A DNA stretch of 64,000 nt from Bryoerythrophyllum caledonicum (Eukaryota > Streptophyta > Bryopsida > Pottiales > Pottiaceae), in the NCBI GenBank assembly GCA_963971425.1, contig OZ020520.1, positions 5,126,553 through 5,190,552 of the forward strand, written 5' to 3'. Below are positions 3,851-24,993 of the stretch, piece after piece (within the stretch, counting starts at the first letter, position 1; every line of letters starts with the position of its first letter). The notes beneath the pieces were generated by a model, which was not told where the DNA came from, ran no database searches, and was given only the letters and a program-made list of their open reading frames with translations. The position numbers and the translations under genes were made by a program.

Positions 3851-5655
3851 TTGAATGAAAGATCTTTGCGGAGTAGCCAAGCTTCAAACCCCGTTGATGA
3901 GAGTTCACCATTTTCTCACTGCACCCCCTCTAACATTCGAGATTTGCCCCATGTGGAGGGATTTGCTCACGTTAGAACAACGCGCCGACCTTATTCTATG
4001 CAGAATAGAAGAAGGATAGATTCAAGCGAGTCAAATGTGACAGGAACTGCAACAAGTAAGGTATCTTTGGCAAGCGTGGAAAGGACAATAGCACAGGGAG
4101 GATGCAAACAAAATTATTTGAGGGACATTTCAACTAGGCATATTTTAGACATGCGATATAATGCTTGGGCACCAGAGTATTCAATCCAAAGTACATGGAT
4201 AAGACAAATGTTGGTTTCTTTTTATACACGAATGGAAGGATTTCGTCGGGATAAATTTGAGAGGAAGTTAGATGGCAGGCCTATTTACAATGTTTGCTAC
4301 GCTCTTGGGGTTGGTTATTTGCAACGGTGTTTTAAGGAGTTGAAGAAAGATTGTTTTAATACACGGTAGAGTGACGGCAATCCACGGTAACACACTATCG
4401 AATCCGATTAGAGAGAGCACTAGAATGTCTGCTGCAGAGGCTTGCTTCAAATCATTTGTGGAAGAAGCTGAATGTCCTCAACCTCATCGTTCTATTTGCC
4501 GTAAGGATGACAATACAGTGGTGCCTCTTATTCTCCTTCTAATGAATACAATAAAATTTGACGTATTCAATTACGTGAATGAAGAGGTGAAGAGAATATG
4601 CAGTGGAGAAACCATTTCAATTAGCTCGTTCCATAGAATGTGGCGTTTGAGATATCCCCATGTCCAGGTTCCACCATTCTCAAGGTTCTCAAAGTGTTAT
4701 CATTGTTGGGAATATAAATGTGCTATGGAGGGAACAACCAATGCCGATGCGAGGATTAGGATCAAAGAATTGTTTATGTTGCATCTACCCATCGAAATGG
4801 AGGAACGTAGGCATTATTGGATATTCAAGAGGTCGTGTTATATCCACCCTGAGTTGTACATGTGCATCATTGTGAATGGCATGGACCAAACACGACCATG
4901 GTACCAAGAATGCGTCAAACGGTAAAGAACATTGAACACCGGTTTGTGAAGACCCATCGATGCGGGGCTCTAGTACATGGAATCGGTTTGTATTGCGACA
5001 TATGGTTTGGAGCTCACCACACACATGACAGCAACTAGGTCATGAGCACATTGTTGTATGTGATTGGAGACGTGTTGCGGAGGAAGGGATTTTTGCCACC
5101 AACATTGCGCATCCAAGCAGATAATTGCACCCGTGAGAATAAAAACATCTATATGTTTGTTCTATGCGCATCCTTGGTGGGATTGAGATTTTTTCAAGTG
5201 GTGGAACTCTCTTTCCTTATAGTGGGCCATACACATGAAGATATTGATCAACGCTTCAATTGTATATCAAGTACTTTGAAGAGATCGGACGTGAAATCCT
5301 TAAAAGAAATGTTTAACCTTGTAGAACATGGAACGTCTCCTACGGAGGCATTTGTCACCGCACGGCTATTAGAGAATGTGTGGAATTAGAAACAATTCAT
5401 AACACCCCACCTATTAACAGGTCCGGATTCATTAGTTGGCACAAAATTTTATACACCACATGTGATTCTATATAGATGATAGAAATGGGATCCACAAAAT
5501 TTGAGTGCAATACAAACATAACTACAATTATGCTTGGGGACCGAAGACAGAGACAAAGACTTTGAGGTCGTTGCCAAATAGAGATGAGCGACCAACGTTT
5601 GCAAATGTGTTTGGAACGGACGAACGGGAGCTATAAGCGTTGGATGACTTCATTG
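3851..5655 (+). pseudogene. DUF7869-type gene, 5' part, decayed and split
   Basis: Three frames in succession (3851-4369, 4371-4925, then about 4919-5389) carry motifs in the order expected for the DUF7869 family: an IHGN motif near the start of the second frame, a cysteine pair (CYHCWEYK), then QADNCTRENKN and GHTHEDIDQRF. These D-N and GHTH motifs resemble an RNase-H-like integrase or transposase core, but the family function is not established. The frame breaks near 4370, shifts within an A-run near 4918, and has a TAG at 5038 and a TAA at 5634. The gene continues at 24110 beyond the giant insertion: joining 5655 to 24110 gives an open frame across the junction. It was probably a repeat-family gene already when the hAT landed. 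Confidence 0.75.
5648..5655 (+). repeat. Target-site duplication of the giant hAT, left copy
   Basis: CTTCATTG directly precedes CAGGGTT. The same 8 bases follow the right terminus at 24102-24109. Eight bases is the hAT target-duplication length. The shared string is 10 bp (ACTTCATTGC, 5647-5656 and 24101-24110), so the exact edge could shift by a base or two. Confidence 0.85.
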
Positions 5656-5672
5656 CAGGGTTACCAATCCGA

Positions 5673-5712
5673 CGTCCTTGGGGGTTTGAGAGCGTCCTTG
5701 GGGGTTTGAGAG
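5673..5712 (+). repeat. 20-bp tandem duplication beside the left hAT terminus
   Basis: The unit CGTCCTTGGGGGTTTGAGAG occurs twice in a row and a third, changed start (CGTCCTAGGG) follows. It lies in the subterminal zone, where GACGTCC and CGTCC words recur on to about 5780. Short subterminal repeats in hAT elements are known transposase binding sites; that role here is inferred. Confidence 0.8.
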
Positions 5713-5869
5713 CGTCCTAGGGCGTCCTACGACGAGGTCGTCCTGACGTCACGTCGGACGCAGCGTCCGGGGGGGTAAAATGCATTTACGGAAGGCCCTA
5801 GTAAGTTTCCTGGACCATCAGATTCGATGAAGTGCCATGCGACGAGATCTCAGCCGTCGAAATGCGTCA

Positions 5870-6118
5870 GGTCATCCGATCGGACCCTGCCGTCGGAGAG
5901 ATCGGACGGCACCTCGGCCGTCCGCGTGATCGGACGGCCAATGGACAGATCGTACGGCCCCGAATTGATCGCGGGGGCGCACGACGGCCGTCCGATTAGG
6001 CCGACGGCTTTAGGGCCGCCCGATCGGACGGCCGTACGACCGGCCGATCGGCCGTCCGATTGGAGGACGGACGGCCGTGGTGGCGGTCGGCCTCATGGCC
6101 GTCCACCACCCTATAAAA
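5870..6118 (+). promoter_or_regulatory. CGGACGGCC-rich block and TATA box of the kinase-like gene
   Basis: About 250 bp contain eight copies of CGGACGGC or its complement GCCGTCCG, many extended to GATCGGACGGCC. The block ends at TATAAAA (6112-6118), followed by a pyrimidine-rich stretch (CTCTCTCTCTC) like a plant transcription start. The coding start is about 470 bp downstream. The same arrangement of GC block then TATA-like box recurs at 18640-18238 and 23990-23774 on the minus strand. The promoter role is inferred from position; the block may also be a subterminal transposase-binding array. Confidence 0.65.
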
Positions 6119-6269
6119 GGCCGTCCGCCAACCTCTCTCTCTCACTTTTTCCTTCCCCTCTCGAAATATATTTTTGAGTGGATGCGGAGTGGCTTTGGCT
6201 GGCATTTTTTCATCCATTGGCTCCTCATCTTTGGGAGGAAAAAAGTGATTCACATTGGGGGGGAGTTTT

Positions 6270-6562
6270 TGCGGTTTTTTTAAAGTTTTTTTAAAAACTT
6301 ATTCGAAACATGTTTTTTTCATATTTTTTTTAGAACTTGTTCCAAACTAGTTTTTCTCTTGAAGTTTTTTTTAAAACTTGCTCTAAGAAGTTTTTTCTCA
6401 TAGTTTTTTTTTAGAACTTGTTCCAAACTTGTTTTTTTCTTGAAGTTTTTTTTAAAACTTGTTCTAAGAAGTTTTTTCTCATAGTTTTTTGTAGAACTTG
6501 TTCCAAACTAGTTTTTTTCTTGAAGTTTTTTTAAAAACTTGTTCTAAAAAGTTTTTTTTAAA
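6270..6562 (+). repeat. T-rich tandem repeat in the leader of the kinase-like gene
   Basis: A unit of about 82 bp, containing AACTTGTTCCAAAC, GAAGTTTTTTT and TTCTCATAGTTTTT, is repeated about three times with small length changes in T-runs. It lies between the TATA box and the coding start, so it would be in the 5' untranslated region or a leader intron. Confidence 0.7.
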
Positions 6563-6965
6563 TCTTCAAACGGCGGCGGGTTAAAGAAGATGTCGAAGGA
6601 CAAGAAGAAGTAGAAGGTTGCAGACTTCGGAGTGAAGCTTCATTCAATCCACGATGTTCCATCGGAGGCTTGCAAGAATTTCCTCATAGAACTGACCGTC
6701 AGATTCTATGAGGAAAATTCTATTCGATCATTGGAGAGCAAGTACGTCAGATATAGAGATGAAGGCCCCGAGAAGTTCCGGACGGACATGTGGCAGCACA
6801 TGATGGACGCGCTTCAAGCCCCGATGTGGAGTACGGAGACCCAAAAGCGTGGGTTTTTGAAGTTCTTGGATGCCAAAGTGCACGATTCACTCTGGAATGC
6901 CAAGAACTTGTTGACCAAGTTTGGGAGGTTCAATCGCGCGGCGGATGAAGTTTTGAACGACGTGT

Positions 6966-6968
6966 TGT
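6966..6968 (+). repeat. CACTA target duplication TGT, left copy
   Basis: TGT precedes the CACTA terminus and is repeated at 10872-10874 after the right end. Three bases is the duplication length of the CACTA superfamily. Confidence 0.85.
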
Positions 6969-8100
6969 CACTATAAGAAAACCCCGTTTTTGGTGATGTC
7001 TTCTGCAGACGCAACATCACTTCGGTGATGTCTTCAAGACAGAGCAGGATGTCTAGCTAGACATGAGTATGTCTTCTGCGTCTTTGGGGTATTATAGCAA
7101 CTTCGGTGGCATGAAGAGAGCCGTGTCTTCAAGAAGACGCGAAGATGTCTGCAGAGACGTGGATGTCTTTGCGGATGTCTTTGCAGACATTCCCGGAGAC
7201 ATCAAAGTGCCACGTTGGCAAGGAAATCCGGTTTGACCGAGGGTAAATGTCTGAAAGTCACTAGTATGCGGGGTAAAATGCAGCCCAAATGTAGAAAATT
7301 AGCATAATGGGCAGCGGTTTGCATGAGCAAAGGAAAAGTCTTCATCCAATAAAATATTGTTTCCTTTTTTGTTCATTAAAAAAGTATTTTGAATTCCTTA
7401 TAAATTCAAAATATTAATTTTTTGATATGAATATTATTTTTTCAGTAGTTGTCATTGGTCCATTTAAAAAAATGATATTAAAAATTAAAATTTTGAATTT
7501 AAAATTACTGAGTATATATATTTCTGAATAAATTAATAATATGTAATAACAAATTATTATATTTAAATTAATAAATTGTTATATATTCAATCAAAATTAT
7601 TAAAATATTAAAATATATGTATTTAAATATTATTAAATTATTAAAATAGAAATGCTGTAGAAAATAACATTTAATAATAAATGTCAATTTTCCGATATTG
7701 ATAATTGAATAAACACGTGGACATATTGTTCACTTAATAATTTACAGCTCCTTATCTACATGGCAACGAAAACTCCACGTCGGATGAGCTGACACGTCAT
7801 AAAATGTCTAGGCGGATGTCTGTAGAGACATCCGACTGACTTTGACTATAATAATGATATAATGTCTCCGTAAACGTCCTAGAAGATGTGCGTAAGGACG
7901 TCTACCGAGACATTCCTCTAGACGTCCTGACAGACATTGCATGTCTAGAACAGTAGTCGGCGTACCAATAAGTGACTCTGTCACTACTCCTCTTGGATTT
8001 CAGCATTGTTGATTGTATTTGTTGCGGCTGTAACATAGCACCCTCCCAAGGGCGGTGGTCTTCGAATTGCCTCTGTCTCTTGAATCTCTGGTTGTAAGCC

Positions 8101-8675
8101 TCAAAAGTCTGCGTCATCACCGATTGCGATTTCACTTGCCAATGGCTGCCGATGTTGTATTGTTGTACGCCGACCTTGGACCTCTGTTCGGCACACGATC
8201 TTCCATCTGCGTCTGCTAGGGTCATCTAAGAAGAAAACCTGTTGACAATGCAAGGGAAATGCAAATGAATCCGGATGCACTCTGCCGTCCATGTGGTTGA
8301 AGTTCGCTACGTTGAATCCGTACTTGTCGCGCTCAATGTTGGGCACTCGCACATCCTTTGAGGGTCTTACCATTCGCAGAGCAACACCGTGGTGCAGTGA
8401 TTCAGTAATTACAACTCCAGTATTTCCTCAATATACTCCACATGCTCCGCAGTATGGTCAATGAGCCTCCCATTTTGAATCCCCCAACGCAGTTGTTGTG
8501 TATAGGTTGCCACTATACAAGAATCTTGAGTAACGAGACCCCCCTCGGAAGTCCAAACTCGCATATGCATCTCGAATGCACTCATTTGATGATTTGAGGT
8601 TGCAAATCGCTCCGGGGGACATGAGTATCGTACCACGTCCTCATCCAAACGTTCACCAGCCCCTTCTGCTTGCAA
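8101..8675 (-). pseudogene. DUF4216 fragment of a CACTA transposase gene
   Basis: Two minus-strand frames (8675-8409 and 8373-8101) join with a frameshift near 8400. The second contains YGFNVANFNHMD followed by FAFPLHCQQVFFLDDP, the pattern of the DUF4216 domain found downstream of TNP2 in plant CACTA transposases. The first part (LVTQDSCIVATYTQQLRWG) fits the start of that domain. No transposase catalytic domain is found elsewhere in the element. Confidence 0.65.
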
Positions 8676-8974
8676 CGCCCATGCTCTAAGTCAATTTGCA
8701 AAGCTTGGCCAACATTGGAACATTTGAAAAGACATCAATCATGACATCGAACTATCAATGAAGATGTCTAAGATGACGTCCATGAAGATGTCTAAGATGA
8801 CGTCCATGAAGATGTCTATAATGACATTCATAACCATCAACTAGGATGAATTTCATCGAGTTCACTGAATGAACAGAGGCGGCTAGGGTTAGCAGCTGCA
8901 GCCATAGTTAGGTCATGAGACCTTTAAGTAGAATTTGAGGCTGCACAAAGCTCACTTTGGCCTTCATTTCTCTA

Positions 8975-9210
8975 AGTAGTTAGAGTTTAGAATGTAGAGG
9001 TTAGAGTTTTAGAGTGTAGACTGAGTTTACAAGTTAGGATGTTAGAGTTTAGAGTGTAGAGGTTAGAGTTTTAGAGTGTAGACTGAGTTTACAAGTTAGG
9101 ATGTTAGAGTTTTAGAGTGTAGAGGTTAGAGTTTTAGAGTTTTAGAGTGTGTGGTTTAGATGTTAAAGTTTTAGAGTTTGAGAGTGTTAGAGTTTAGAGT
9201 GTAGAGGCAG
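8975..9210 (+). repeat. TTAGAGTTTTAGAGTGTAG tandem array
   Basis: The array is made of TTAGAG and AGAGTGTAG words. A longer unit of about 74 bp, from TACAAGTTAGGATG to the next, is duplicated at 9029-9110. It lies inside the CACTA element and has no coding potential. Confidence 0.8.
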
Positions 9211-10079
9211 CAAAGCAGAAATAAAGAAAGAGGCGTGCAAGTAGGTGAGTGATTGCACAATATAATGCTGGCCCGAATGAGACTCAAGTGAGCCACTGCA
9301 CGACGTATGAACAACACGGAAAATCTTGAAGACATTTTTAAAGACGTCTTTGAAGACGTCCAGTCAAACGCGTCAACATTTCCATGAGCGTCTGAGATGT
9401 CTGCTAGAACATCCCAGAAGACATCTTGTCACATATAGCAACTTGTATTCTACTTTGAGGGACATGTGGAACGTTTACATAGTGGTGAGATTAAGACTAA
9501 CAGTTTTTTGGCGTTAAGAAGTTAACCATGCACATATAGGTCGTCCTGCAAACAGGATTTATGGCAATTTTCTTCTTGTGTTAAACCCTTATTTAATTGC
9601 ATGCGTTGTTGGCTTGTTGAACATGTGCAGTGTTGGACATGCGCACGACCATATGGGAGTAGCGACAACCAGTGATGACAGAGGAGCAATTTGAAGTTGT
9701 GGGTACGTAGTACATTGCTGATGTAGATAGAAGTATTTTTTTGATGTAATTTTTTTATTAGGTTACAAACAATATTGTTATAACAACTAATTTGTGATGT
9801 CACCTCGTGTTTTGAGTATGCAATGAAAATACTTACTCTTGACAAGCAGCCATCAGTATTGTAGACATTTTGAACATTGGATACTGCGATGTCTATATAT
9901 GTCTCTGAATGTTATGTGAGATGTATTGAAAGATGTCTAGAACAGGAAGAGAAGACATTCCGATGTCACAGTGGATGTTTGAATGGTGAGTGGAGCATGC
10001 TTCAAAAGACGTCTACATATAGCTGTGGATGTCTTGTAAGACATCCTATACAAGTCGTCATAGATGTTTTCTAGGACGT

Positions 10080-10300
10080 TTGTGCAATCACGTCCTCTCG
10101 AACATCTTCTCAAACGTCATATCAAACATCATCTATAGCATCTTCTTGAACATCTTTTGAAACGTCATAGCAAACATCATCTCCAGCATCTTCGCAAACA
10201 TCTTCTCAAACGACATAGCAAACATCATCTTGAACATCCTCAGGAACATCCTCCCAAACATCCCCTAAGACATCCTCTAAAACATCCTCCACTACATCAC
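10080..10300 (+). repeat. AACATCNTC short-period repeat in the CACTA right arm
   Basis: About 220 bp consist of irregular 12-base steps of the type AAACATCTTC or AAACATCCTC, sometimes with CGTCAT. The words are relatives of the AGACATC motif scattered over the CACTA element, so the array is best read as expanded subterminal repeats. The frame open through it is a low-complexity artefact. Confidence 0.65.
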
Positions 10301-11980
10301 TGGAGCAGTACCATGTCTCAAGCGATGTCTCGGCACATGCTACTTTAGTTCAGAAGACATCACTTGAGACATCCTTGAAGACATTGTGGATGTCGGCCCA
10401 AACATCAGGGATGTCTATCAGGAACATATTTTGAGTATAAAAACCCCCAAAACGATGCTGACGTCGCATGCCACGTCATTTTTCCGGGTCCACGTTGGAT
10501 TTCCCGCCTGCCACGTCATGCCACATCAGATTTTTCCACGTGCCATATCAAATTTTGGCGCCGCCACGTCATTGTATGTGGGATCATGGAAAAGTCCGCA
10601 TAAGGATGAAATTCATTGCCATGTGGCACTGCCGGTTCACTTGGCGCTGATGTGTCTCTGACGTGGCTCCCACGTGGCACAGACTTTACCCTCACAAAAT
10701 TACCTCTAGACGTCTTAGACACAAAGATGTCTTCCGTGTCTTCCCGAATGTCTTCTTAGACATCCACCTTGTCTAAGATGTCTTCGCGCTTGCAAGACAT
10801 GACCGTAGATGTCTTTGCGTTTTTTGAGACATCACTGAAAACATGACAAAAAACATGGTTTTTTTATAGTGTGTCGAAGGCGGATTTGATCGTGACCCAG
10901 ATGAAGCCATTCGCCAAGAATCGAAACCGGCGTGGCTCCGTGGGATGGTGGAACTGGATAGAGGGACACCAAGAAGACCTACTGCGTAAAGCCCATCTCA
11001 TTGCCATTCCGCCAATAGCCGCGGTTATACGAATGGACAATGCGAACATGAGAGGTAGATATGCCACCATTTGCAAAGTCCGCAGTGAGGGTACTCCGGG
11101 CATTGAACCATTCTGGGAATTTGCCGCCAAGTTGTCCAACCAATCAGAGACACGGCCGGATTTGACAAAAGTTGAGCATCAGAATGAGATGATGGCGGTG
11201 AGGATTCCACATCCGGGTGTCATCCGTTTCGTGGCCATTCATCCGGACAAGTACGAAGGCTATGCGTATTGGTGGAATGGTGGGACAATTCGAGAGATGT
11301 TGAACCGGGATATCGAGTTTGGTGACCATGTCATCACACATTTGAACTATGGGAGATTCCCCAATGATGAGATTATTCGAGTTCAACAGTTGGTTCGTTT
11401 TCGCAAAAAACGGACCGAGCTTGCGTGGGCGTTGTTGCGCATCATGAACGAGGTCCACAAGAACAACAATCTCCACAATGACTTGTCTCCGGACAATATC
11501 CTCCTCCACTTCCCTCCAGATGAATCGCGAGTGTATATTGGAGTATGCGATTGGGGCATGACCACGAAGGTTAACGAACCAATGCAGTCTCTTTATACGT
11601 TTACAAAGCGTGAAGACATGGCCGAGACTCTGCGAAAGCGATGGTGGGTCGATCCGCGGGTTGCGTACTTGCACAAACCAGATGCGGATGTGCAAATGAT
11701 TCCGAAGTTATCGATGGCTTCGGAGGAGTTTGCTACGGCCCGAATAGCGCAACAAATCAACGCGCGGACAATGTCCGTAGACTACAAGAATCTGCAACGG
11801 GAATCTCGGAGTTCCGTAGTATTCTCAAATCAAGAATTTGCGGATATATTTCATATGTACATAGAGAGAGTCTGCAACGAAAACCGACAAAGCGCTGGAG
11901 GGTTGTTTCATATCATTACACGCTTCAGCCACACATACAAGTGGCCGACCCCTCATGAGCATTATCGGTCAACGTATTAG

Positions 11981-14900
11981 TAATACATAGGTTTTATTTT
12001 ATTCCTTTCGGCATTATTAGACTATACTAGATAACATGCACATTTTGAAGTGACTATAGCAATAGTCTTAGATTAATATGTATTGCATGCCTTTAAAATT
12101 TGGGCACAAAAAATTAAAAAAACCTTATTTTATATAGCCGTGCAAAGAGCGACATTTTTTGAATTTTATATGGTTTAGGTTGTGGCATAGTTCCGATTTT
12201 TTAACTTATCAATGTGTTCTATTTCAAAATTCTTGTATTTCAGAATTTTTGTTAAAATTACCTCAAAATATCCTAATCCAACCTTATGATGAGATTTCCC
12301 TACACACCAATTTTTAGAGGTAGAAAAGAACTGTAGCATATTCAAATCAAGTGGGCAAATACTGGAGTTTAAAAATTGCCATTCCATGTTTTATTTTTTA
12401 GTAAACTGAATAAGATTTCAAATGATAATCCAAACCCAGGTTTAGAAAGGTTTTCAGTGTTCACTACATGTTGTTGAAAAAGCAAAATGTGTAAAATATG
12501 ATGATCTCTAGGTTTTATGTAGAGAAGACGTATATCAAATTTTACGAGTTTGGGTTCGAATTTTTGGGATAGATCATAGTGCCCATGGCACTAAATCATA
12601 CATAACCTCAACCATTTTATGTTTCTTGAATATAATTTAGCATTTATAGAAATTACCCCCATTTGAAACGCCTCCTCATGCCCGACTCCCTACTCATACC
12701 ACATGTCTCCTATATCCCCAAAAATATCGTGACAGTTTTGATCCGGAAACACTTCAAAGTTGTTGGATTCTAGTGCAATGACCATAGAAGGAAACCAAAA
12801 GTTTGATTTCTAGTTCTGACTGTTGGATCTCAATTAAGACTTATAAAAAAATATGTTTACAAAATTTCAAAAACTTTGACCGCACAGATTGAAAGATTAT
12901 AGTGTGTGAAGTGAAGCAAATGGTTTAGGGTCTTCATTGCGTTTAGTGGATCCGCAAACTTTGACTTTACCTGGCGTCAAAATTTTGAACTACACAAGGT
13001 CTAAATCCACTACCTTAAACATGATGGTAGTTCCTTAGACAACAATTTCTTGAGGTAGAGGACATGTGTAGCGTATTCAAAACAACTATGGAAGTAGTGG
13101 AGGTTCAAACTTTGCCAATTCAAACTTCTTTTTCTTATGAACTTCATGTGTTTTGAATTACTAATCCGAATGGTCAATAAGAAGGTTTACACCACATATT
13201 AATGTAGAGAAAATAAAATGTAAGAAATGCAAAGATATGTAGGTTTTCTATGAAAATTAATAAGATCTTTTGGTACCTCGCCCGACAATAAGTGACAATG
13301 TGTGAAAATGTTTGACTTGGGTTGGTATGCTATTTTTAAAATTTTCAATAAAGAGAAGACTTGTTTTTTCAAGGGAATGGTGAAAAACATCGTTTCTCAT
13401 AAGGTTTTCCATGACATTGTCATGTACATTCTTCTAAATATTTATACCTGAATCAGATGCATAGAAAAGTTAAAAGTTTGATTCAAACTTTGCATGTTCA
13501 GGGTTCATGCACGCTTTGGCGACGTCCCCTTCCATCCAATTGTATTCTTTCCGTGTCCATCATCATATTATTGTTTCAAATGAGATTTCAAACGAGACAC
13601 CTTACATGTCTTGTAAATGAATATCGCCATATATAACAAATTTGAAAACACAACCAACACTAACACACAAAAAACATGCATGAGATCAAATGTGATGAAC
13701 ATATTCTCTAGCCATAATCTACATCCAAAGTTTAGTCCCTAAAATGTTATTTTTAAATACACTCCAAAATGTCAAATTTTCAAAACTATTGTAACAATTT
13801 TTTTGCTTGCGAGCTAGATGAAAACGCACCTAAAAAGCCCAAATCCGAAGTCGGAATTCCAAAAAAATTAATATTTTGGAAGTTATTAAGTCGCTGTTAT
13901 GTTAATTCTGCCAAAAAAACAGTTTCATCCACTGTGGATGAAATTCTATGCGGCGAAAGAAAAATCCCGCAGCGGATGAAAATGTCTGCAGCGGATGAAA
14001 AATAGCGCAACGAATTAAAAACAAGCTGTGGATGGAAAAAAAACTGCGGATGAAAAATCAGCATACGGATGAAAATCAGACTGCGATTTAAATGTTTGCA
14101 GCGGATGAAAACATTTGTAGCGGATGAAAAGTAGACTGCAGATGAAATTTTGAAAACCTAATTATAATATTAAACTACATTACAATGGTTGGACTAATGC
14201 GTTGCAAAGCAAGCGCCAACCGCTACTTTGCATCTATAGAAGTTTGGTAGTGGTTCGCGGTTGTTTTGCAACACATTATAACAACCACTTTAATGAATTT
14301 TCTATATGATTTAATATTAAGAAAAAGATTCATTTCAAAATTACTTTAAAAAAATTGGAAGACTAGAGAAGGAGCGGGTTACAAACATTAAGTGTTTCTT
14401 AATAGTGTTCGTGATGATTCTTAACACTTTGCCATAGTCATTCGCAGACGATTTTTCTTCTGGAGACTGTTTTCCATCCAGAGACTGTTTTCTCAACCAA
14501 GGACTGTTTTTCCATCCTCTGCCTATTTTCATTCGCAGTGGATGAAATTGTAATTTGGCCACATTATATTAATAGTGGATATCGGCTCTCTAAGTAGGGT
14601 TATATTTAGTAGAAAAAATAAATTATATAAAAGGTTTTCCAAAAACCACATTCTTGTGTGTGTTTATAAAGCATTTTAAGGAAGTTCAATGCCTAACTCC
14701 GTAGGTAGATTGCTACGACATATTTACTTGGACATCTAGAACCATAACAATTTAAAGCAATGAAGTATATGCAATCATTAATACAAACATGCATACATTA
14801 AATTGTAGAGGCATTCAAATATGAATAGCAAAAATGCTTATAGGAAGATTTTGTTGTATTCATTGATATTGTATAATGTATTTGGTATACCATTTTGTGT

Positions 14901-15149
14901 ACTCTATAGAGTAATTTCCACACACTAAAATATCCTTAGAGCATAACTTATGGCCATACACAAAACATGACAAATCATCACAACACAGTACAACAACTAA
15001 CCCGCACACATATTCACTGACTGTATCAATGCACTTCATCTACTAAACATCCAAATAACAAACCCTATCCTCTACAATAGCCATCTCGACCAAACTATTT
15101 TAATGTCGTTGATCCACATGTTACAAAACTGAACACATATAACAATCCT
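11981..15149. other. AT-rich filler inside the giant hAT
   Basis: About 3 kb with no recognisable gene. Two segments, near 12299-12420 and 13030-13150, look like diverged copies of one another in direct orientation (both run GAGGTAGA, TGTAGC, ATTCAAA, TTGCCA), which suggests an old internal duplication. The GATGAAA array at 13930-14150 is listed separately. Confidence 0.5.
13930..14150 (+). repeat. GCGGATGAAAA irregular repeat
   Basis: About ten copies of a word close to GCGGATGAAAA are spaced 12-35 bases apart. Reverse-complement copies (TTCATCC, TTTCCATCC) follow at 14460-14550, and related words open the window at 1-45. It looks like a dispersed low-complexity family rather than a clean minisatellite. 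Confidence 0.6.
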
Positions 15150-16330
15150 TCACAAAGTTCTGCTCAAGCAAATATCGATGGAAACGAACAAGCAAATAAA
15201 CTTGGGAAAGAGGTCCGCAAAAAAACGCATGAAAATGCCAAAGACTTGTACAAACATCCACATGCTACCCCATACCACTTCCAAAAAGAATATTGGCCTC
15301 CTAAAGAGGATACCCCCATTAAGGTTCCGATTTTATTCTTGAACAAATATCTCAAGAAACAAGACCTCTATAACAACCTTGACACAATCAAATAAAACTT
15401 CTCTAATATAGAATAATGGGTTCGCAACAACAAAATAGACTATGAACTCTCTACAAATTCTTCAAAAAATCCCATCATCCCGAACTCACAAATAACATGC
15501 GTCATCAAATTCTGTAATAGTCGATATTTGGTAAACGCCCGAAAACAACTCTTATTTGGAATAGAAAAATTCCCATATGTAACATGCCCCATATGCACTT
15601 TCTCAGACGCCGACAAATCACTCCATGTTCTACTGAAAATGCCAAAACCATCACATACACTCCTTAATTGTCACAAGACATAACAAAGCAGTACGGGAAA
15701 TTCGATAACTATTTACCTCCCATAACAAATCACGATGATTTATCCTCATGAATGCCGGCACTTTTAATAATAAGTTACAACCCAGAAGGAAATACGGTCC
15801 CCCCTTGGCTACTCCCGAGTCCCATGTACATGCGCAACATAGCGTTGTCTTTGTAACGCTAGACTCAAAGCCGACATACTTTGCATTTGGGGCCTACCAT
15901 ACAACGACCCTGCACCCGACCACATTAACCAAGAGTATACCATTCAATTCATTGAATTCACATATTGTAATGATAGATTCTCCCCGGAAACAATTGAAAA
16001 CAAAATAAATGAATACCAATCCAGCAACCCCTTGTTAATGACATCGTTGCCCTCGGATGGAAAATGGACCCGCTTATTGTAATAACTGCCGATGCTCGTG
16101 CCACCACCTTTATCCCATCTATAAATATCCTTTTGAGATACCTTTAAAATCTCCATCGAAACAATTTCACACACTCTCAATATTATTAACACTGTTGCCA
16201 TTCAACAGGCCATGTCCATTCTACTACACCTATGCAAAATGGAAAAGAAACCAAGCCCTCCCCGACAGGGTGTCTAGTGGGCATGGTCTTAGTGATGGAA
16301 GGAATAGATTCTTTATTCACGCCGGCCCCT
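15150..16330 (+). pseudogene. Non-LTR retrotransposon (LINE-like) 3' remnant
   Basis: A broken plus-strand frame begins with IDGNEQANKLGKEV, which resembles the end of an RNase H domain (GNExAxxLAKE). It is followed by a cysteine pair in FPYVTCPICTF with a nearby histidine (KSLHVLLK), then by frames such as NDIVALGWKMDPLIVITADA near 16030-16110. This order fits the C-terminal part of a plant or algal LINE reverse-transcriptase ORF. Frameshifts and stops are frequent. No reverse-transcriptase core is visible, so this is a 5'-truncated copy nested in the hAT. Confidence 0.5.
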
Positions 16331-16725
16331 TTGCGGACCGGCGTTTCTCTTCTTGCTTTAACTTCTAGGTCAAAAATACTCAAGGAACTTTAGAGGTACA
16401 GGTTGTAAAAAAAATTTATTTAACATGTAATGATATGAAATACTCTTTAACTTTTATGAGGTGAATGAAAAGTTGGAATGTATAAAAATTTCTCATTCCA
16501 CACATCTACTTATACTAAAAAATTATCAATAAATTTCATTTGGAAACATGTAGCATGCATTGTACATTCATCATCCACATTGACATGGCCGCAACGTAGA
16601 AATATTTAATAAACATCGATTAGAAGATCTTAAAGAATGACCTTCTAAATTTACAAAATAGTCAACATTGTTCTCGCATGAAGACATTATCCACATGGAT
16701 TACATTACACAAAGACCATGTATGA
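16331..16725. other. Non-coding stretch 3' of the repeat-rich gene
   Basis: AT-rich; nothing recognised. It would contain the 3' untranslated end of the minus-strand gene that begins at 17967. Confidence 0.4.
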
Positions 16726-17967
16726 TTAATCGGAATCTGAGTCAGTATCACGTCTTTGACTGGGCCGAGCGCCACTTGAATACGGCCCGCTTGAATAAAC
16801 ATCATAGAAGTTATTGTATTGCCTGTTCATGTAGCGAGATTCATCTTCGAGCCTGCGGATGTACTCGTTCTGGCTTTGTATTGTGGCTTCATGCATTTGT
16901 CTTTCAAACTCGGCATCTTCGTTCTGACGAGGTGGAAACGTTGATGGAGGTGTGTTGTCTCTCCCATCTAAGCTCCGGCCAAATCCATTGTAAGCATGGC
17001 CATATCCGTCGTAATAGACGGGTCCAGAATTTGGAGTGTCGTGTTCTTCCTCTTTTCCGGGGTAATTACGACCAGACTCGTACGTATCCCTTGGATGCGT
17101 TCGTGTATAGCTCTGAGGGGTGTTGGTCCCTGTACCACATTGGCTGCCATCCAAAGAACGGCCATATGCATGGTAAGAACCACCATATCCGTCGTAATAG
17201 ACGGGTGCAGAGTGTGGGGTGTTATGTTCTTCTTCTTTTCCGGGGGAATTACGACGAAACTCGTATGTATCCCTTGGATGCGTTAGCGTATAGCTCTGAG
17301 GGCTGTTGGTCCCTGTACCACATTGGTCGCCTTCGTAGTAATGGCTGCCACTCCCCTACCAAATGTTACAGGCGCGGAACCCATATCATTGCCACGGCTG
17401 TAGTCGTTGTAGTTATGTTCCCCGTACTCTTCTGGAGGTGTCTGCTGTTGTTGATGGGCATCGGGATCGTCCCCGGATCTTTGGTTTGACCAACGTGGCC
17501 AACAATCACTCGGTTGATTCCAGGTGGCTGGTATAAAATGGACAGTTCGATCCATCAGGCTGACATTGCGGCCCGCCACGGTGCGCCAGTCCACATCCTT
17601 GTGTAGGACGATTTCCGCCCAAACCATCGCCATGTTCGAATACAACATGATCTCCGGCCTCGAGTTATGCACACCCACCGCAGCAGTGACCTCATGATAT
17701 CGATGGCGGAAATGGTCGCTCAGACAATTGCTCGCTAGACCTTCGCGCCGCGGCCCTGATATCCTCGCTTGTGCCCTCGGCCACAACTTCATGAGGTGCT
17801 TCATCTTCACGTACCTCTTGCACATGGTGCAAGTCCACAACCTCTCTTCCTCGTCCTGCCATCCGTACTCTGCAACAACATCTGGATCGTCCGTTGCATC
17901 CCAATCCATCTCGGGGGCTTTGCCCTTTGGAGCAACGGGCCGGTTGGACCTTGGAATCTTCCCTAAC
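16726..17967 (-). CDS. Unrecognised cargo gene with tandem Gly/Tyr/Pro-rich repeats
   Basis: The exon probably starts after TTCTAG near 17968; the first Met in frame is at 17909 (MDWDATDDPD). The N-terminal part has a cysteine pair (WTCTMCKRY) followed by KMKH and later histidines, a possible zinc finger. The central part is Gln/Tyr/Asn-rich. From about 17345 downward the protein contains repeats of about 57-60 residues with CGTGTN, PQSYT, HPRDTYE, PGKEEEH and PVYYDGYG. A one-base frameshift near 17350 is needed to pass from the N-terminal frame into the repeats. The end is acidic and Arg-rich (RRDTDSDSD). I recognise no family. A GC-rich block with TATA-like sequence lies upstream at 18238-18640, like those of the other cargo genes. 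Confidence 0.5.
16985..17345 (-). repeat. Tandem repeat of about 175 bp within the cargo gene
   Basis: The plus-strand word CCATATCCGTCGTAATAGAC starts two long copies, near 17000 and 17190. Each runs on through GGATGCGTT and TATAGCTCTGAGG to CCTGTACCACATTGG. Copies differ by about one base in ten and keep the reading frame, so the repeat was coding while it diverged. Confidence 0.75.
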
Positions 17968-18237
17968 TAGAACAAACAATTAAATGAATGAATGGGAATT
18001 AACCCCTAAAGTTCCTTGACAATTTCCCTCAAAAACTATAAGTGATACTAACTTTCAAACCAGAAACCCAAAAAATAAAATAAAAATATGTCCACGAAGC
18101 TCTTATCAAAGGCAATGTAGAATAAAAATTTCAGAGAAAATTGATTTGTTTCCGAATTTTAGGAACCTGTCCAAAAATCAAGGAATCCCCCCGAAAGAGA
18201 TTCAGGTTGTTTAGGGGTTAAACGAATTAAAAAATAA

Positions 18238-18640
18238 TAAATATAGAGCCACTCGAGGTGGCGCAAGCGATTCGGCAGAATATGCCAAAGCGATCAGCTC
18301 GCCCACTAGAGTGTGGAAGAAAGGTCGGCCGTCCGCCTTTTATGCCGACCGCGAGTGGCGGACGGCCTCGGCGGATGGTCGGCGAATCGTCCGAGCCGTC
18401 CGATGGCGGACGCCGAGGCCGTCCGCCATCGGCCGTATCGCCTGATCGGACGGCCACGATGCTGCCACGGACGGTCACGGCCGACCGATCGGACGGCCGT
18501 GGCCGCCTGCACCCACGACCGTCGGATCGGACGGCCACGACCGTTAGATCTGTCTCGGCCGTTCAATCGGATCCGGCCGCAGAGACCGTCCGCGGCCATC
18601 GGATCGGGCGGCTGAGGTCGTCCGCGGGCGGCCCAGATCG
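18238..18640. promoter_or_regulatory. Second CGGACGGCC block, possibly a bidirectional promoter
   Basis: Seven or more copies of GCCGTCCG / CGGACGGC lie in about 340 bp, often as GATCGGACGGCC. On the minus strand the block is followed by a TATA-like string (CTATATTTAT, near 18246-18237) and then by the repeat-rich gene. On the plus strand it is followed by a pyrimidine-rich tract (18640-18735), a TATATA-like string near 18868 and, beyond the assembly gap, the end of a plus-strand gene. The layout suggests divergent transcription; this is inference. Long open frames across the block on both strands are GC artefacts. Confidence 0.55.
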
Positions 18641-19476
18641 GTCGGCCTCCCCTCTTCGCTCCTCCACTTCCTTGCGCTCCCTCCCCTTCCAATTCTCTCC
18701 CCTCTCATCTCCCTTCCCTTGTCCTCCACTTCCATTTTTGGGACGGTTGACTTTGCACGTGCAATCCAGATCTGGAGATCCAGTCACGTGCATTAATGGT
18801 CGGAAGAATGTCGGGAAGATTTTGTGCGCATTCACGCGGATATTCCATTCTGCGCGTGGAAGCACATATTTATATAGTTTCTTAAGAATGGTTCCACTGA
18901 AAATATTTTACATAACATGTAAGAGATGCTCGTTTCCTTTTTTATGTTTGACTCACCAGGAGGAAATTGGAATGGCCCACGGGCACAATGTTCCAAGGGC
19001 CAAGGGTACATTGCCCACGGCATAGGTATAACTTTGTATGGGAGGATTTTTGGCCTTTACATGACTAAATCTCCTTCGTGGCGAGTTTTTAATTTCGGTA
19101 GGTTTCTAGATTGCGAATATGAAGAAACAACTTTCGAATTTTTTATGTTACTTTGTCCCCGGGAAGAGCTATTTGAATGTATTAATTAAATTTTTTTGTA
19201 GATTTGTGGTTTCAAATTTAGTACCACCTATAGTCAAAAAAGGAAAGCACTGGCATCTAAAATCCTTTTATAGAATTGTTTGTTGACATTCACTCATCGA
19301 GGTTATACATACTCATCTGAAATTTTTTTTTTCTTGAAACATTTCCGAAAAAAGGAGGGTCTTCATTGTAAATTCGCATTTTATTCGAAGTAAAATAATT
19401 TCACCATTTTTTGTGCAATGTGCAACAAAAATTCTTCTTTTCCTCAATAAAACTTACAATTTATTTTTGTTTTTTC

Positions 19477-19676
19477 NNNNNNNNNNNNNNNNNNNNNNNN
19501 NNNNNNNNNNNNNNNNNNNNNNNNNNNNNNNNNNNNNNNNNNNNNNNNNNNNNNNNNNNNNNNNNNNNNNNNNNNNNNNNNNNNNNNNNNNNNNNNNNNN
19601 NNNNNNNNNNNNNNNNNNNNNNNNNNNNNNNNNNNNNNNNNNNNNNNNNNNNNNNNNNNNNNNNNNNNNNNNNNNN
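19477..19676. other. Assembly gap of 200 N
   Basis: Exactly 200 ambiguous bases, a conventional size for a gap of unknown length. It removes the upstream part of the plus-strand gene ending at 20010 and makes the length of the hAT element uncertain. Confidence 0.99.
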
Positions 19677-20010
19677 CATTGGCTATTGGCGGAACGTAGT
19701 ACTAAAACCGGAAGGGAAATTATTGGTGTCATTTCCAGAAAATGACGCTTTTGTGAACAAGGTGGTGGAACGAATAAAGAAGGCCATGGAAATCTTTGTG
19801 GCGAAGAAGGTGGATCCTGGCGGGAAGCGGAAGAGGGATGATGGCAATGACAGCGACGATAGTTGGTGGTCGGAGATGCATAGGGAAATTGCAGCCGTGG
19901 ATCGAGAGTATGAAGAGGGGGGGAGGATTGCTAGGCCAAGCCAAAGACCGCGGACTCGTAGTAGCACTCGAACGGATCATACCGACGAGCCTTCTTCTTC
20001 AAGGCAATAG
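19677..20010 (+). CDS. C-terminal part of an unrecognised cargo gene, cut by the gap
   Basis: About 110 codons are open from the gap edge to a TAG at 20008. The protein begins GYWRNVVLKPEGKLLVSFP, continues through a basic segment (GGKRKRDD) and SWWSEMHREIAAVDREYEEG, and ends in an Arg/Ser-rich tail (RPRTRSSTRTD). The tail looks disordered and may hold a nuclear-localisation signal. No family recognised. The promoter may be the GC block at 18238-18640 if the gene crosses the gap. Confidence 0.5.
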
Positions 20011-20525
20011 AATGTGGTAGATGAATGTAAAGCTTAGCGTAGTTATTGTTTAAGGAATGGTGTGGCAAGAAGTCGGAAGCATGCCATGGTGGAGCATACT
20101 TTTTAAAATAAAGGTTTACAATTTGTAATATATTTTGTGAACTTCTGAATTCTTTAATTGTATGTGGGTGTTAGAAATATTGTGGTGCATTAGGTGGATG
20201 CGAAGCAATGAAATGAATAGAAGTTTGCAAACTCGAATTACATTCTGCATACAACAAGAATGTCATGTTTAAGTCATTTCGTATGGGATGACTAAATCCA
20301 TACACAAAACACAAGACAATAGAATAGCAAAAGAGATGGATGTAAAACTTGTGCATATATGAAAAAACTTAATTGATATTCGGAATAAATCCAAGAATCA
20401 ATTGAGACAATAAAAGCTTTTGATGCATACGCAAAACGACTATAAAGTACCCTAAACTCGAACTACAGTATTAACATACAAAATAAGTGCGGTGAATGCA
20501 TACTACGTAAATGGGCCAAATTTTC
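20011..20525. other. Spacer between convergent cargo genes
   Basis: AT-rich DNA between the plus-strand gene ending at 20010 and the minus-strand transposase region. It probably contains both 3' untranslated ends. No gene seen. Confidence 0.45.
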
Positions 20526-21171
20526 CTATTCATTCACGTCGGTAGGAAGTTCGTAATCGCTGTCATCTTTGATTTCAGCTCCACTAGATTCCGAAGGATC
20601 GTTTTTATTATCCGTGATGGATTCTTGTTTGATTCTCCGTTTCATCGACAATGTTTTAATGGTTTTGAATCTCTTACAAGTTCCAATGACATCAATGGGA
20701 TTTCTAGGTCGCGTGCGAAGAAATGGATGCATGAAAGCTTTACGTTTCCTCGTGTCGTTTGTAGGCCGCCTAGGTTGTAACCCTAAACCTCCCTGAACCT
20801 CGGGGTGATGTATGAAGAGCTTAGTACATCGCCATCACTAGGTAGGCCATCGGATTGGTGTTGCGGCGTTCGGGATCGTACATGTTTTGTAAGGGACACC
20901 AAACCGTGGGAGGATTTCAAATTGGTTGTAGTGACCGTTGCAAGAGGGGTTGCAAATAGAGACCGCGACGCGCGACCTTGCAAGGACGGTTGATCCTTAG
21001 AGGATGATGCCTTCTTCTCCATAACGTGAATGGGACTCCGTGTACCGCCGTAAGTACTGCCCTCCATAGTTTTCTCCCCGAGAACAACCGTGTCGTCTAG
21101 GAATGGCTCTTTCGTTGTTTGCTCGCGGTTGTCCGCAAGTGCGAGACCGTGGACACCTTCGTCAACACTCT
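20526..21171 (-). other. Possible 3' extension of the hAT transposase gene
   Basis: A minus-strand frame from 21283 to 20783 overlaps the end of the transposase frame, and a further frame, 20732-20526, follows. Both are rich in Ser, Lys and acidic residues without domains. They could be downstream exons or decayed tail sequence; they could also be chance frames. Confidence 0.3.
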
Positions 21172-23579
21172 TCACTGAGGACCCTTGCATTTTTTGCCCG
21201 GTAGTGCCGCTGCACGTGAGGATGATAAATCTTCTCCTCCCTTGTCGTTCGTGTCTTCCGGAAGCGGAGTCGGTCCACGACAAAGGATATTATTGCCATT
21301 GACCATGCCGTCTCCATTCAAGTACCGCGTTATGGGCAACAAGTCATCTTCTTTCTCTGCAAGAGTGTCGTCATCGACAAAATCATACTCGGTGATTGGG
21401 GCGTCGTGAGTATGATCCATACGTTGAGAAGGACTGATGTCGATGTCATCGTCTAGATGCTCTGCATCGTAATTGGCAAGGGCACCGGTGTGTGAATCGT
21501 CAGAGTAGTCCGGGTCATCCGACTCACGTGGTTGTGGATCCTCTAAATCCAAGTTCTCCGCGTACCACCTCTTCTCGTCCGTCAACTTTGCATTCGCAAG
21601 CAACTTCGAGTTCGTATACACAAAGACCAAGTCATCAGCCCTTCCCGGTAATAACCGATTCCTTTTCTTGTCGTGGACGAAAGAGTAGCTACTCCAATTG
21701 CGTTCGCAAGAAGAAGATGACACTGTCTGCGCTAGTATTCTCTTTGCAATTGGTGCAAGGAGCTTTCCACAAGCACCTTTAAAATCCCACCAAGCATACG
21801 GAGAACATATTTGGTCCTTAGGATCCAACATGTCATGGAATGGTACATCCTCGTTTCGAAATGCGAGGAACTCGTTCACCACGTCCGGGTAAATCTTAGG
21901 ATCACATAGCTTTTGTAGTACTCGTTTGCATGCCGTGATGACATCCAGATCATCGGCCAACTCTTCGTCATGCAGTAAATAAGGATTGAGAAGTGCACCG
22001 GCGGAATGTAAATCCGTGGTCATCATACATTTTTGTGCGTAGAACTCGTCCTCAGCAATGAACGCTAAATCGCTATCGAGACTGAATGGTTCATTACGCA
22101 ACGCTAGGACATGCTTCTCGAGGTCGCGAAGGATGTGCAAAACCTTGGGCATGCAAGGTTCTTTGGCATCGAATTCCCGAAGCGCATACACTACAGGAGC
22201 TACCATCTCTTGGAAGTTCATGCGCCGCTCCCAGAAATGCTCATCTAGAACCACTCTTTTGATGGCTCGAGAAATGACTACTTTATCTCTAGCCGAGAGT
22301 GACTTCTTGGAGGCGTATGCCCGCCATTCAAGATCAACGACGGTTTGCTCCAATGATTCCTTGACCTTCAGCAGGCGATCTATCATTATGAAATTACATG
22401 CATATCTTGTTTGCCCGGGGAGCAATAGGCTGAACTTCGCCTCGTGTTTACGAAACAGGGCGAGGGGCATTTGCCGATTCTTGACAAACTTAACCAAGAA
22501 CTTGGCCTTCTCGAGAGTTTCTTTTACCCATGTAGCCTTCCCCCAGTCCTCCAACAATAAGTCCATGGCATGCGCGGCACATCCTTGAATGTATATGTGT
22601 GGATATTTCTTGACGACCAATGCTGAGGCATTGAGCATGACTGGAGCATTGTCAATACACACCTGAACAATGTTGTAGGAGCCAACTTGTTCAATGAACT
22701 TGAACATGATGGATGCCAGGTACGCAGCGTTCTTTTCATTGCCCGTAGTATCTACAGCTCCCAAGAAGAGCTCTCCAGCGGGAGACACGAGCATTGCATT
22801 GCACAAAGGGCGACTAGTCACAGATGTCCACCCATCTATGGCTAGAGTTCCTCCAAACTTCCGAACACTCTCGAACAGTCTTTTATTGAGTTGTGCTTCC
22901 AAATCAGCCTTCGCTTGTCTCAACTACCTTGTTCGAATGTCATGGTAAGAGGGTGGGACATATGGTTTTTTGAAAGAGGCACTCTTCATCACGGCTTCCT
23001 TGAATGCAATATTCCGTGCTATGACAAATGGCACGTTTGCTTCGTAGAAAAACTTCGCCCACACTTTGTCTAGCTCCCGCCGCTCCACTTCTTGAAAGCC
23101 CTCTTCGAGCACGGATTGCCTCACCAATCTGGAGAACGTGGCACGTACACTCCCTTGTTCGGTGAAGTTGTGGAAGGTGGGGGTTGGTTCAACCATGGTT
23201 GATGGTAAAATCACGGAGGAGGCTTGAGTGGACCCTACAGAAGAATCTTCACCGGTGGACTTGGGCGGGCTATATCCTGAGGCAGGCGCAGATTTCAATG
23301 GTGGGATGGGGCAATGTTCGGAGAAAAGTTCTCCATTGTATTTTGGGTAGTGGCCACGACAATTTTTAAACAAAGTCTATACGCGGGGTGTCAATTTGGT
23401 GCAGAGGCCAACACCGCTGTTGCGCTACCAGGGAGTTCTTCGTACCCGAGGTGACTTAGTTGTCGTTCTAGCCTTCTTGCAAAAATGAGGTGACAAAGAC
23501 TGCATCGGACGGAGTCGGTCTTCCTGCCTTGTACTTCAGTGATTTCGACATAGCAAGGAGACCAAGGTTTGGTAGCCAT
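21172..23579 (-). pseudogene. hAT transposase (BED, DUF659, hAT dimerisation domain), decayed
   Basis: The chosen start is the ATG at 23579 (MATKPWSPCYVEI), followed by a BED-like finger (VRCSLCHLIF, then SHLGYEELPG). A frame change or small intron lies near 23373-23391. The next part ends YVPPSYHDIRTR, then an in-frame TAG (near 22926), then a 583-codon frame. That frame opens with the DUF659 region (GGTLAIDGWTSVTSRPLCN, VQVCIDNAPVMLNA, YIQGCAAHAMDLLLEDWGK) and ends with the hAT C-terminal dimerisation motif (SSSCERNWSSYSFVHDKKRN, then VYTNSKLL). These are the diagnostic blocks of plant hAT transposases. The gene reads inward from the right hAT end, behind the third GC-rich block. Confidence 0.9.
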
Positions 23580-23773
23580 TCTGATGGGTGTAGTATCGAG
23601 AAATGAACAAACGTGATAGGTAGTATGTGGAAGAAATATCAGGAGTTCCAAAAGAAACTCTGATATTCAAGACTTCCGAACTCGATGATTACCAAGCAAT
23701 AGATACATAATGCAGGTGAAAGCTCTTGGAAAACAAAAGTTCAGAAGTGAAGTGAGGCTCCATGTGCTGTTTT

Positions 23774-23990
23774 CTTTATACTCACGGTGATTCTGACCGT
23801 TGGGAGACGATTCATTGTCAATCTAATAGGGGACGGGGGAGCTGTTGCGAGAAGGCTGTCCGCCGCGGCGATCGGCCCTGGCGGACGGCCACGCGGACGA
23901 CGGACGCCGGTCGCCTGAAGCGGACGGCCGTGCCGTCGGCCCAAGCGGACGGAATGGACGGTCGGCCGGGGCTGCAGACGGCTATTTACC
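23774..23990 (-). promoter_or_regulatory. Third CGGACGGCC block with TATA box, upstream of the transposase
   Basis: Two exact CGGACGGCC words and several near matches (GGACGACGGAC, GGACGGAATGGACGG) lie at about 23855-23960. On the minus strand they are followed by TATAAAG (23780-23774), about 195 bases before the chosen ATG. The arrangement mirrors the block at the left end, which supports a shared promoter or subterminal repeat. Confidence 0.6.
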
Positions 23991-23999
23991 CCTGGGTAA

Positions 24000-24101
24000 A
24001 TTGACAAAACTGGTTATGTCACCGGACGTCCTGATAGGCCGGAGGACGTCCTCCGTCCTGGCGTCCGGATGTCAGGGACGTCGAGCGTCTTGACAACCCT
24101 A
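24000..24101 (-). repeat. Right terminal region of the giant hAT
   Basis: Read inward, it starts TAGGGTTGTCAAGACGCTCG and continues with GACGTCC and GGACG words up to about 24015, matching the composition of the left subterminal zone. The outermost base differs between ends (C at left, T at right), which is common in hAT termini. Confidence 0.75.
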
Positions 24102-24109
24102 CTTCATTG
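24102..24109 (+). repeat. Target-site duplication of the giant hAT, right copy
   Basis: CTTCATTG, identical to 5648-5655, lies directly outside the right terminus. Confidence 0.85.
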
Positions 24110-24993
24110 CCTATAAACAGAGGTGCATTGAAAGATTGCAACAGGAGGAAGGAACCGTGATGCTCAAGTGGAGGGCCGAGAAATTGAAACTGTATTCAGC
24201 CAAATTTCCATACAAAGACCATAGCAACGAGCATCATTCTTTACCATTTCGGCCTTCAGATGTGTCCAATACCGCATTTGCGGAACGTATTTCATTGGAT
24301 GAAGTCAACGGCCTAGGCGACGAAAATCGCAAAGTAACCGTCGTGGACCAAATTGTGGCTATACTTCCAAATGCAGACTCTCGAGGATATTTTGGTCCGT
24401 GTAGAGGAAGACCATCGAATCAAGTAATACGTAGGGCGCAACGAACGAAACGCAACCATGTTCAAGAACAAATCGAACAAGGAGCAGGGGATGAAGTTAA
24501 TCACGACCCGTTTCCACCATTCAATCCACAATCAGACATTAATTGTGGTCAATTTCTAGCCCTAAGTGTTGATAGAGCTGAGGTTGAAGGTGGTATACCA
24601 TTCTATGTAGGGAAGGTGATTGAAGATGAGAAAAATCAAAGGAGTCATAAGATGAAGGTTTGTTGGTATTGGCCCATCATGCAAAGAGAAAATGTTGACA
24701 GAACATGGTCCACCACACAACGATATGCAAATTGCATGGATGCATTCTGGGAGCCCACGTGTGAGAGCCATAGTTGGGTAGAGAAAGAGGCATGCATCTT
24801 TTCGTGGATAGACGAACCTGAAAGAACAATGGCTGGCGCTTTCCGGAGGAGAAAGTGAAATATATTCGGATTGCAAGTTGAAAGCAAGATTCAGATTTTT
24901 CAGTCGGCTAAAGCTCACATACTAGAATATATTGCAATGCAAACCGAAGCAATTGACGATGAGCGGTTGCAAGCAGCCTTGAATGATATGTAG
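24110..24993 (+). pseudogene. DUF7869-type gene, 3' part
   Basis: The frame that crosses the excised junction continues here as YKQRCIERLQQEEG and stays open to a TGA at 24856. The same frame then resumes and ends at TAG 24991. The segment GQFLALSVDRAEVEGGIPFY followed by GKVIEDEK, VCWYWPIMQ and CMDAFWEP fits the small beta-rich C-terminal part of DUF7869 proteins. Together with 3851-5655 it makes a nearly full-length but broken gene. Confidence 0.75.

Follow-up and report, generated by a model that had tools for sequence, protein, structure and literature searches.

A giant hAT transposon family with four recurring genes in the moss Bryoerythrophyllum caledonicum

hAT elements such as Ac are the textbook example of small, one-gene cut-and-paste transposons and normally span a few kilobases. 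In maize, the En/Spm (TnpA/TnpD) and MuDR (mudrA/mudrB) transposons encode a transposase and an accessory protein from the same element. Among 276 plant hAT sequences surveyed, the longest, Gulliver of Chlamydomonas, measures 7,144 bp, and the survey detected no hAT in mosses (PMC6027215). In Ectocarpus, giant KDZ and EnSpm elements with accessory genes have been described (PMC12477816). Here, we describe a hAT insertion at positions 5656–24101 of a 64,000-nucleotide stretch of the B. caledonicum genome (assembly GCA_963971425.1, contig OZ020520.1, positions 5,126,553 to 5,190,552 of the forward strand), the whole of which is referred to below as the window. The insertion is, very probably, a decayed copy of a giant hAT family about 20.3 kb in length, with a standard set of four genes arranged in a fixed order, A (+), B (−), C (+), and T (−). 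An initial reading of the window made from its letters alone (hereafter, the sequence-only reading) held that no plant hAT of such design had been described, in agreement with the open-access literature (subscription journals and Repbase being outside this scope): searches of open-access PubMed Central yielded no multi-gene plant hAT, and term searches found the word hAT in the main text of neither a giant-transposon review (PMC6431247) nor a Physcomitrium transposon paper (PMC7466625).

The window copy, 18,446 bp as assembled, including a nested CACTA element and a 200-N gap, is delimited by the following features (window positions).

5648–5655: left target-site duplication, CTTCATTG, 8 bp, exact
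5656–5692, + strand: left terminus, CAGGGTTACCAATCCGACGTCC, beginning CAGGGTTACCAATCC
24077–24101, − strand: right terminus, GACGTCGAGCGTCTTGACAACCCTA, with GTCTTGACAACCCTA ending at 24101; family form ...GTCCTGACAACCCTG
24102–24109: right target-site duplication, CTTCATTG, 8 bp, exact

The copies of CTTCATTG directly adjoin both termini. This octamer is by itself common (7 occurrences in the window versus 3.6 expected); a chance match is ruled out by the exact abutment on both termini together with an empty site. When the flanks are joined, they form an open frame (...ALDDFIAYKQRC... / ...ALDDFIAYKQRCIERL...) that lies downstream of an exon encoding DUF7869 (E = 2e-36) and is immediately preceded by a single stop codon. 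A 300-bp query made of the joined flanks gave 678 first-look candidates, 40 of which were scored, and all 40 matched without a large insert at 90–93% identity (38 across all 300 bases and two across 298–299, with inserts of at most about 3 bases). The exact duplication and the joined empty site imply one insertion event between the duplications, so that everything between them arrived, or grew, within a single insertion; window positions 5656–24101 are thus one hAT insertion. Given that the joined site occurs at many places, the target belonged to a high-copy sequence family. The target itself (window 3818–5400 and 24110–24858) falls in a high-copy DUF7869 family, perhaps another mobile element.

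The sequence-only reading had proposed hAT-type termini and identical 8-bp flanks 18.4 kb apart and had called for an empty site; the exact duplication and the empty site found at all 40 scored places bear this out. The terminal sequence it gave, CAGGGTT/AACCCTA, is correct for the window and not for the family, in which the last base is usually G (CCCTG), the A of the window being a variant present in a few further copies. In usual copies, the terminal inverted repeats are CAGGGTTACCAA / CAGGGTTGTCAG, of the CAGGG type and imperfect beyond the first 7 bp. The window copy has an additional 20-bp tandem copy immediately inside the left terminus.

A transposase reading in from the right end and a kinase-like frame reading in from the left, as proposed earlier, are borne out by matches to DUF659, Dimer_Tnp_hAT, and Pkinase. 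The accompanying claim of several genes within one hAT also stands, although two genes had been named and four are present.

6590–6968, + strand: gene A (protein kinase), 5′ part, with an in-frame stop near the start; open copies exist elsewhere
10875–11980, + strand: gene A, 3′ part, with FAAK, HNDLSPDN, and DWG motifs and the Pkinase match (E = 1e-6)
16726–17966, − strand: gene B, split over two frames in the window
19677–20010, + strand: gene C, last ~110 codons, the remainder falling inside the 200-N gap
20526–23666, − strand: gene T (hAT transposase), broken into several frames in the window

Across the genome, the order left end, A (+, the kinase), B (−), C (+), T (−), right end is nearly constant. 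With matching orientation required, 219 neighbour pairs were consistent with this order versus 2 that were not (left end–A 45:1, A–B 68:1, B–C 35:0, C–T 43:0, and T–right end 28:0, the last being 30:0 before removal of four doubled right ends), counted over the first 100 listed places per end pattern and the best candidates scored in protein searches (kinase, 112; transposase, 75; gene B, 150; gene C, 100). Of 29 other left-end loci, 20 have a kinase frame, with the usual start, at 0.8–1.0 kb from the left end.

The window copy belongs to a large hAT family. Searching the 437-Mb genome (894 contigs) by the termini, as the sequence-only reading had advised, we found 500 matches to the left-end pattern (257 + 243) and 367 to the right-end pattern (191 + 176) at no more than two mismatches, counts in which short relatives, and contigs that may be redundant (C6, C19, and C126 carry a nearly identical kinase), are included; the backwards-pattern control gave 0 matches in each case. 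Target-site duplications were then sought at 20 other left-right pairs chosen among ends listed as exact matches: the 8-bp flanks were identical in 10 pairs, differed by one mismatch in 2, by two in 2, and by at least three in 6, whereas 380 mispaired control combinations yielded no exact match and 2 with one mismatch. The expectation that the same gene set would recur between matching termini, each copy with its own duplication, is borne out. Exact 8-bp duplications also flank copies L059 (ATGTTAAC) and L025 (GTGAATTC). Seven kinase-bearing copies have an exact duplication (the window copy, L059, C1:11619875, C1:57881340, C1:10838814, C2:1558118, and C3:23186223), and three (the window copy, C1:57881340, and C1:10838814) combine it with both ends and genes A, B, and T. 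In the longest pair tested, C3:16873330 (20.0 kb), the flanks do not match (4 mismatches).

The full length of the element is best estimated from the copy on contig C6, which holds A, B, C, and T in 20,154 gap-free bp and aligns to the window on either side of the 200-N gap. Two features account for the different length of the window copy.

6969–10871, + strand: nested CACTA element, CACTATAAGAAAACC...GGTTTTTTTATAGTG, 3,903 bp, with a 3-bp duplication, TGT, at 6966–6968 and 10872–10874
19477–19676: assembly gap of 200 N, in place of which the C6 copy has about 5.96 kb containing most of gene C and the array that precedes it

The CACTA is not present in copies L059, C12, and C6. Adding the missing left end to the length of the C6 copy gives a full-length element of about 20.3 kb. 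The earlier estimate of more than 14 kb after subtraction of the CACTA was therefore right in calling the element giant and too low in size, since the gap stands for about 5.96 kb. At more than 10 kb with extra genes in one element, the C6 copy falls within the definition of a giant DNA transposon. Directly ahead of its left-end gap lies an inverted right terminus (L112:147-501; C6:2171646-2172000), either a neighbouring element or a misjoin.

The family also includes short members. Copies assembled at 0.40 and 0.66 kb (n = 2) have exact duplications, as do L104 and L105 (5.9–6.1 kb), whose similarity to the full element is confined to 140–370 bp at the ends and a patch of 178 bp. Neither of the latter showed a transposase or kinase, L105 being gap-free and L104 containing a 200-N gap. 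The patch (window 16467–16644, L104:4557-4727, L105:4353-4523) is internal and occurs in these shorter copies that otherwise share only the ends. Termini flanking only a transposase, which would have spoken against a multi-gene element, were not seen among the copies read, namely L104, L105, L113, L114, and L032, other short chains lying outside this check.

The fixed 200-N gaps bear directly on an alternative that we regard as unlikely, namely that the element is an old composite, formed when an A-B element and a C-T element, each with more than one gene, joined and the product later multiplied. Among scored matches, A-B chains (30) and C-T chains (19) often occur one without the other, and the GC-rich block separating B from C is similar to the termini. 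However, each of the five copies inspected for an apparent end after B (L059 and L106–L109) has a 200-N gap in the missing part, and each of the three in which the left end appears to lead directly into C or T (L032, L113, and L114) has one at the junction, so that the absence of A-B or C-T may be assembly loss; these gaps often, though not always, lie at a GC-rich array. Copies C12 and C1:57881340 likewise have a 200-N gap between B and T. Apparent sizes below 20 kb are unreliable on this account, and apparent internal deletions were not trusted, a gap having been found in the missing part of every inspected case. Such gaps were noted in L006, L025, L028, L032, L040, L041, L056, L059, L102, L104, L106–L110, and L112–L114, as well as at window 19477–19676; their fixed size and recurrence inside copies make the lengths of many copies in this assembly unreliable.

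Gene T of the window matches DUF659 (PF04937, E = 2e-31) and Dimer_Tnp_hAT (PF05699, E = 4e-10), both above the cut-off, and both domains were found in two other copies. Among 20 copies, the presumed catalytic motifs DGWT, DNA-motif D, and CE(R/C)xWS occur in 18, 19, and 14, respectively, and we take these to be the hAT D, D, and E. A CxLC motif lies near the N terminus in 9 of 20 transposase loci. Lys replaces the presumed catalytic Glu of CERxWS in 5 of 20 copies (L043, L047, L056, L051, and L058, the last two possibly one locus). This substitution, of the G-to-A type, might be a trace of methylation-linked decay. The ratio of nonsynonymous to synonymous differences (pN/pS) is 0.486 for the transposase, versus 0.68 and 0.94 off-frame (20 of 20 copies).

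The product of gene A is about 494 amino acids long. Pkinase is the best Pfam match for its window part, just under the cut-off, and a search of solved structures gave weak general kinase matches (best E = 0.0015). Residues K212, E231, D329, N334, and D352, the kinase catalytic residues, are invariant in 33 aligned kinases (L059 and 32 of the 91 relatives found elsewhere). The best of these 91 is 79% identical over the full query; three carry the name of an organism, two of them that of the moss Ceratodon purpureus (65% and 49% identity) and the third that of a Bacilli metagenome bin. The pooled pairwise pN/pS of the kinase is 0.327, versus 0.68 and 1.26 off-frame (28 of 32 sequences matched). 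Constraint on the kinase is clear, with a pN/pS below that of the transposase.

Gene B is a 413-amino-acid open frame in many copies, with a CxxC zinc-finger-like N terminus, tandem repeats, and no significant Pfam match; it has 48 relatives elsewhere (best 67% over the full query) and a pN/pS of 0.479, versus 1.47 and 1.00 off-frame (5 of 5 copies). In the C6 copy, gene C encodes a zinc-finger-like N terminus and a RING finger (zf-RING_2, E = 4e-8). Its relatives elsewhere number 18 at 33–81% identity (query residues 400–920; 8000 scored candidates), the best reaching 77% over the full query. The N-terminal domains of B and C are homologous (36.5% identity over 126 residues, E = 6e-19). Constraint is moderate on the transposase and gene B and undetectable on the tail of gene C. 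An open reading frame between A and B (window 15081–15395, L059:6619-6933) resembles, in our judgement, the RNase H end of a long interspersed nuclear element, as if an old nested relic were carried by the family. In the window, no tRNAs and no Rfam families at the gathering score were found, and NCBIfam gave no match above its cut-offs.

The genes share arrays of the motif CGGACGG/CCGTCCG.

5903–6127: left subterminal array, 8 sites, upstream of gene A
18329–18592: internal array, 9 sites, upstream of gene B
23882–23952: right subterminal array, 3 sites, upstream of gene T

The 18.4-kb element contains 22 occurrences of the motif, of which the three arrays account for 20, versus 0 in the remaining 45.5 kb of the window; shuffling in 50-bp bins (200 shuffles) gave a mean of 1.5 and a maximum of 5 sites. 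A TATAAA at 6112 stands just ahead of the last site of the left array, upstream of gene A. In the C12 copy, site clusters precede A, B, C, and T and hence lie at both ends, and the same holds for the C6 copy.

These arrays also matter for a second alternative, in our view quite improbable, in which A, B, and C are passenger cargo, host genes captured by a hAT in the manner of Pack-type elements or Starships and perhaps of benefit to the plant. Both the kinase and the RING protein do look like host gene classes, and accessory genes are known in giant transposons elsewhere (PMC12477816). Against such capture, A, B, and C are full length rather than fragments, the same set and order recur (219:2 neighbour pairs among listed places), the ~500-amino-acid architecture is kept in distant kinase relatives, and the four genes share the arrays of the element; the gene set looks like element genes rather than variable cargo. 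A macrotransposon, or a chance pairing in which ordinary host DNA merely lies between two adjacent hAT copies or between two unrelated ends, deserves next to no credence, for although hAT ends can work at a distance (Ac macrotransposons, cited in PMC10175614) and the genome holds 867 matched ends, no further terminus lies inside the interval at one mismatch or fewer, the same interior is found at many sites, and the single exact duplication and the empty site refute this for the window copy and exclude ends from unrelated elements.

Several points weigh against a giant four-gene hAT family. Six of the 20 tested end pairs lack a convincing duplication, and two neighbour pairs depart from the common order, whose counts are a sample because the searches score and list the best places only. 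No fetched four-gene copy is gap-free throughout, the best, on C6, missing ~117 bp of the left end behind an N gap. No significant Pfam BED finger was found in T, B, or C. The C-terminal tail of gene C has a pN/pS of 0.708, versus 0.68 and 0.82 off-frame (18 of 20 copies), and the pN/pS values throughout derive from non-independent sequence pairs with stop-bearing codons excluded. Finally, the transposition activity of the family is predicted from sequence.

The giant hAT family is grounded in what was observed directly: termini, 8-bp duplications, empty site, end numbers, gene order, and kinase constraint. As to how it might work, Ac transposase binds subterminal repeats (PMC3260210), and cut-and-paste by T acting on the termini and arrays is the expected hAT mechanism. 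To move the element, T would bind both its termini and its CGGACGG/CCGTCCG arrays. As anatomy and constraint suggest, T, B, and C may all act on these common arrays, which lie at both ends and upstream of the four genes, and the shared arrays could couple expression to transposition. The kinase and the RING protein might serve the element by modifying either transposition proteins or host factors of chromatin and the cell cycle. Since many copies contain stops and some contain nested insertions, these would move only in trans. It is possible, and we put it forward tentatively, that the family represents a land-plant giant hAT lineage with its own signalling and protein-turnover module, in which a kinase and a RING-type ubiquitin ligase, driven by the same array promoters as the transposase, control the timing of transposition or release it from repression through modification of transposition proteins or host silencing proteins. 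If so, it would be, to our knowledge, the first hAT with a dedicated set of regulatory enzymes, and one with stronger constraint on the kinase than on the transposase. With a kinase and a RING protein travelling with a transposase, control of transposition by an element's own enzymes becomes directly testable.

In comparison with known systems, the maize En/Spm and MuDR transposons differ from the present family in belonging to other superfamilies and in having two genes, with no kinase or RING protein. Starships are likewise large, with several genes, but rely on a tyrosine-recombinase captain (PMC12506042) and have varying accessory genes (PMC10175614), whereas the moss family has a hAT transposase and a near-constant set: among listed places, the same four genes recur in nearly constant order rather than with varying content, and DUF3435, the tyrosine recombinase found at the 5′ edge of Starships, had no Pfam match among the scanned pieces of the four proteins. 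The giant multi-gene hAT class put forward by the sequence-only reading is confirmed as a family, without the varying cargo of the fungal elements to which it had been likened. ToxhAT/ToxTA of fungal wheat pathogens, also multi-gene, 14 kb long, and formerly called hAT, is now placed by its authors probably in Tc1/Mariner, with a TA duplication (PMC12506042). The giant KDZ and EnSpm elements of Ectocarpus and other algae are similar in exceeding 10 kb, in their extra genes, and in nested insertions common to several copies, and differ in their transposase superfamilies. A host with a long haploid phase, inferred in the present case, is a further similarity (PMC12477816). A moss host, which spends most of its life in the haploid state, is in keeping with a published proposal that such life cycles favour giant elements. 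As in Ac/Ds of maize, the family combines an 8-bp duplication, short termini beginning C/TAGGG, subterminal repeats of the kind bound by the transposase in Ac, and many shorter non-autonomous relatives (PMC3260210), and unlike Ac, with 4.6 kb and one gene, it reaches about 20.3 kb with four. It shares the hAT transposase with the surveyed plant hATs and is nearly three times longer than the longest of these (PMC6027215); with four recurring genes and hundreds of ends, it shows that the hAT superfamily can become giant.

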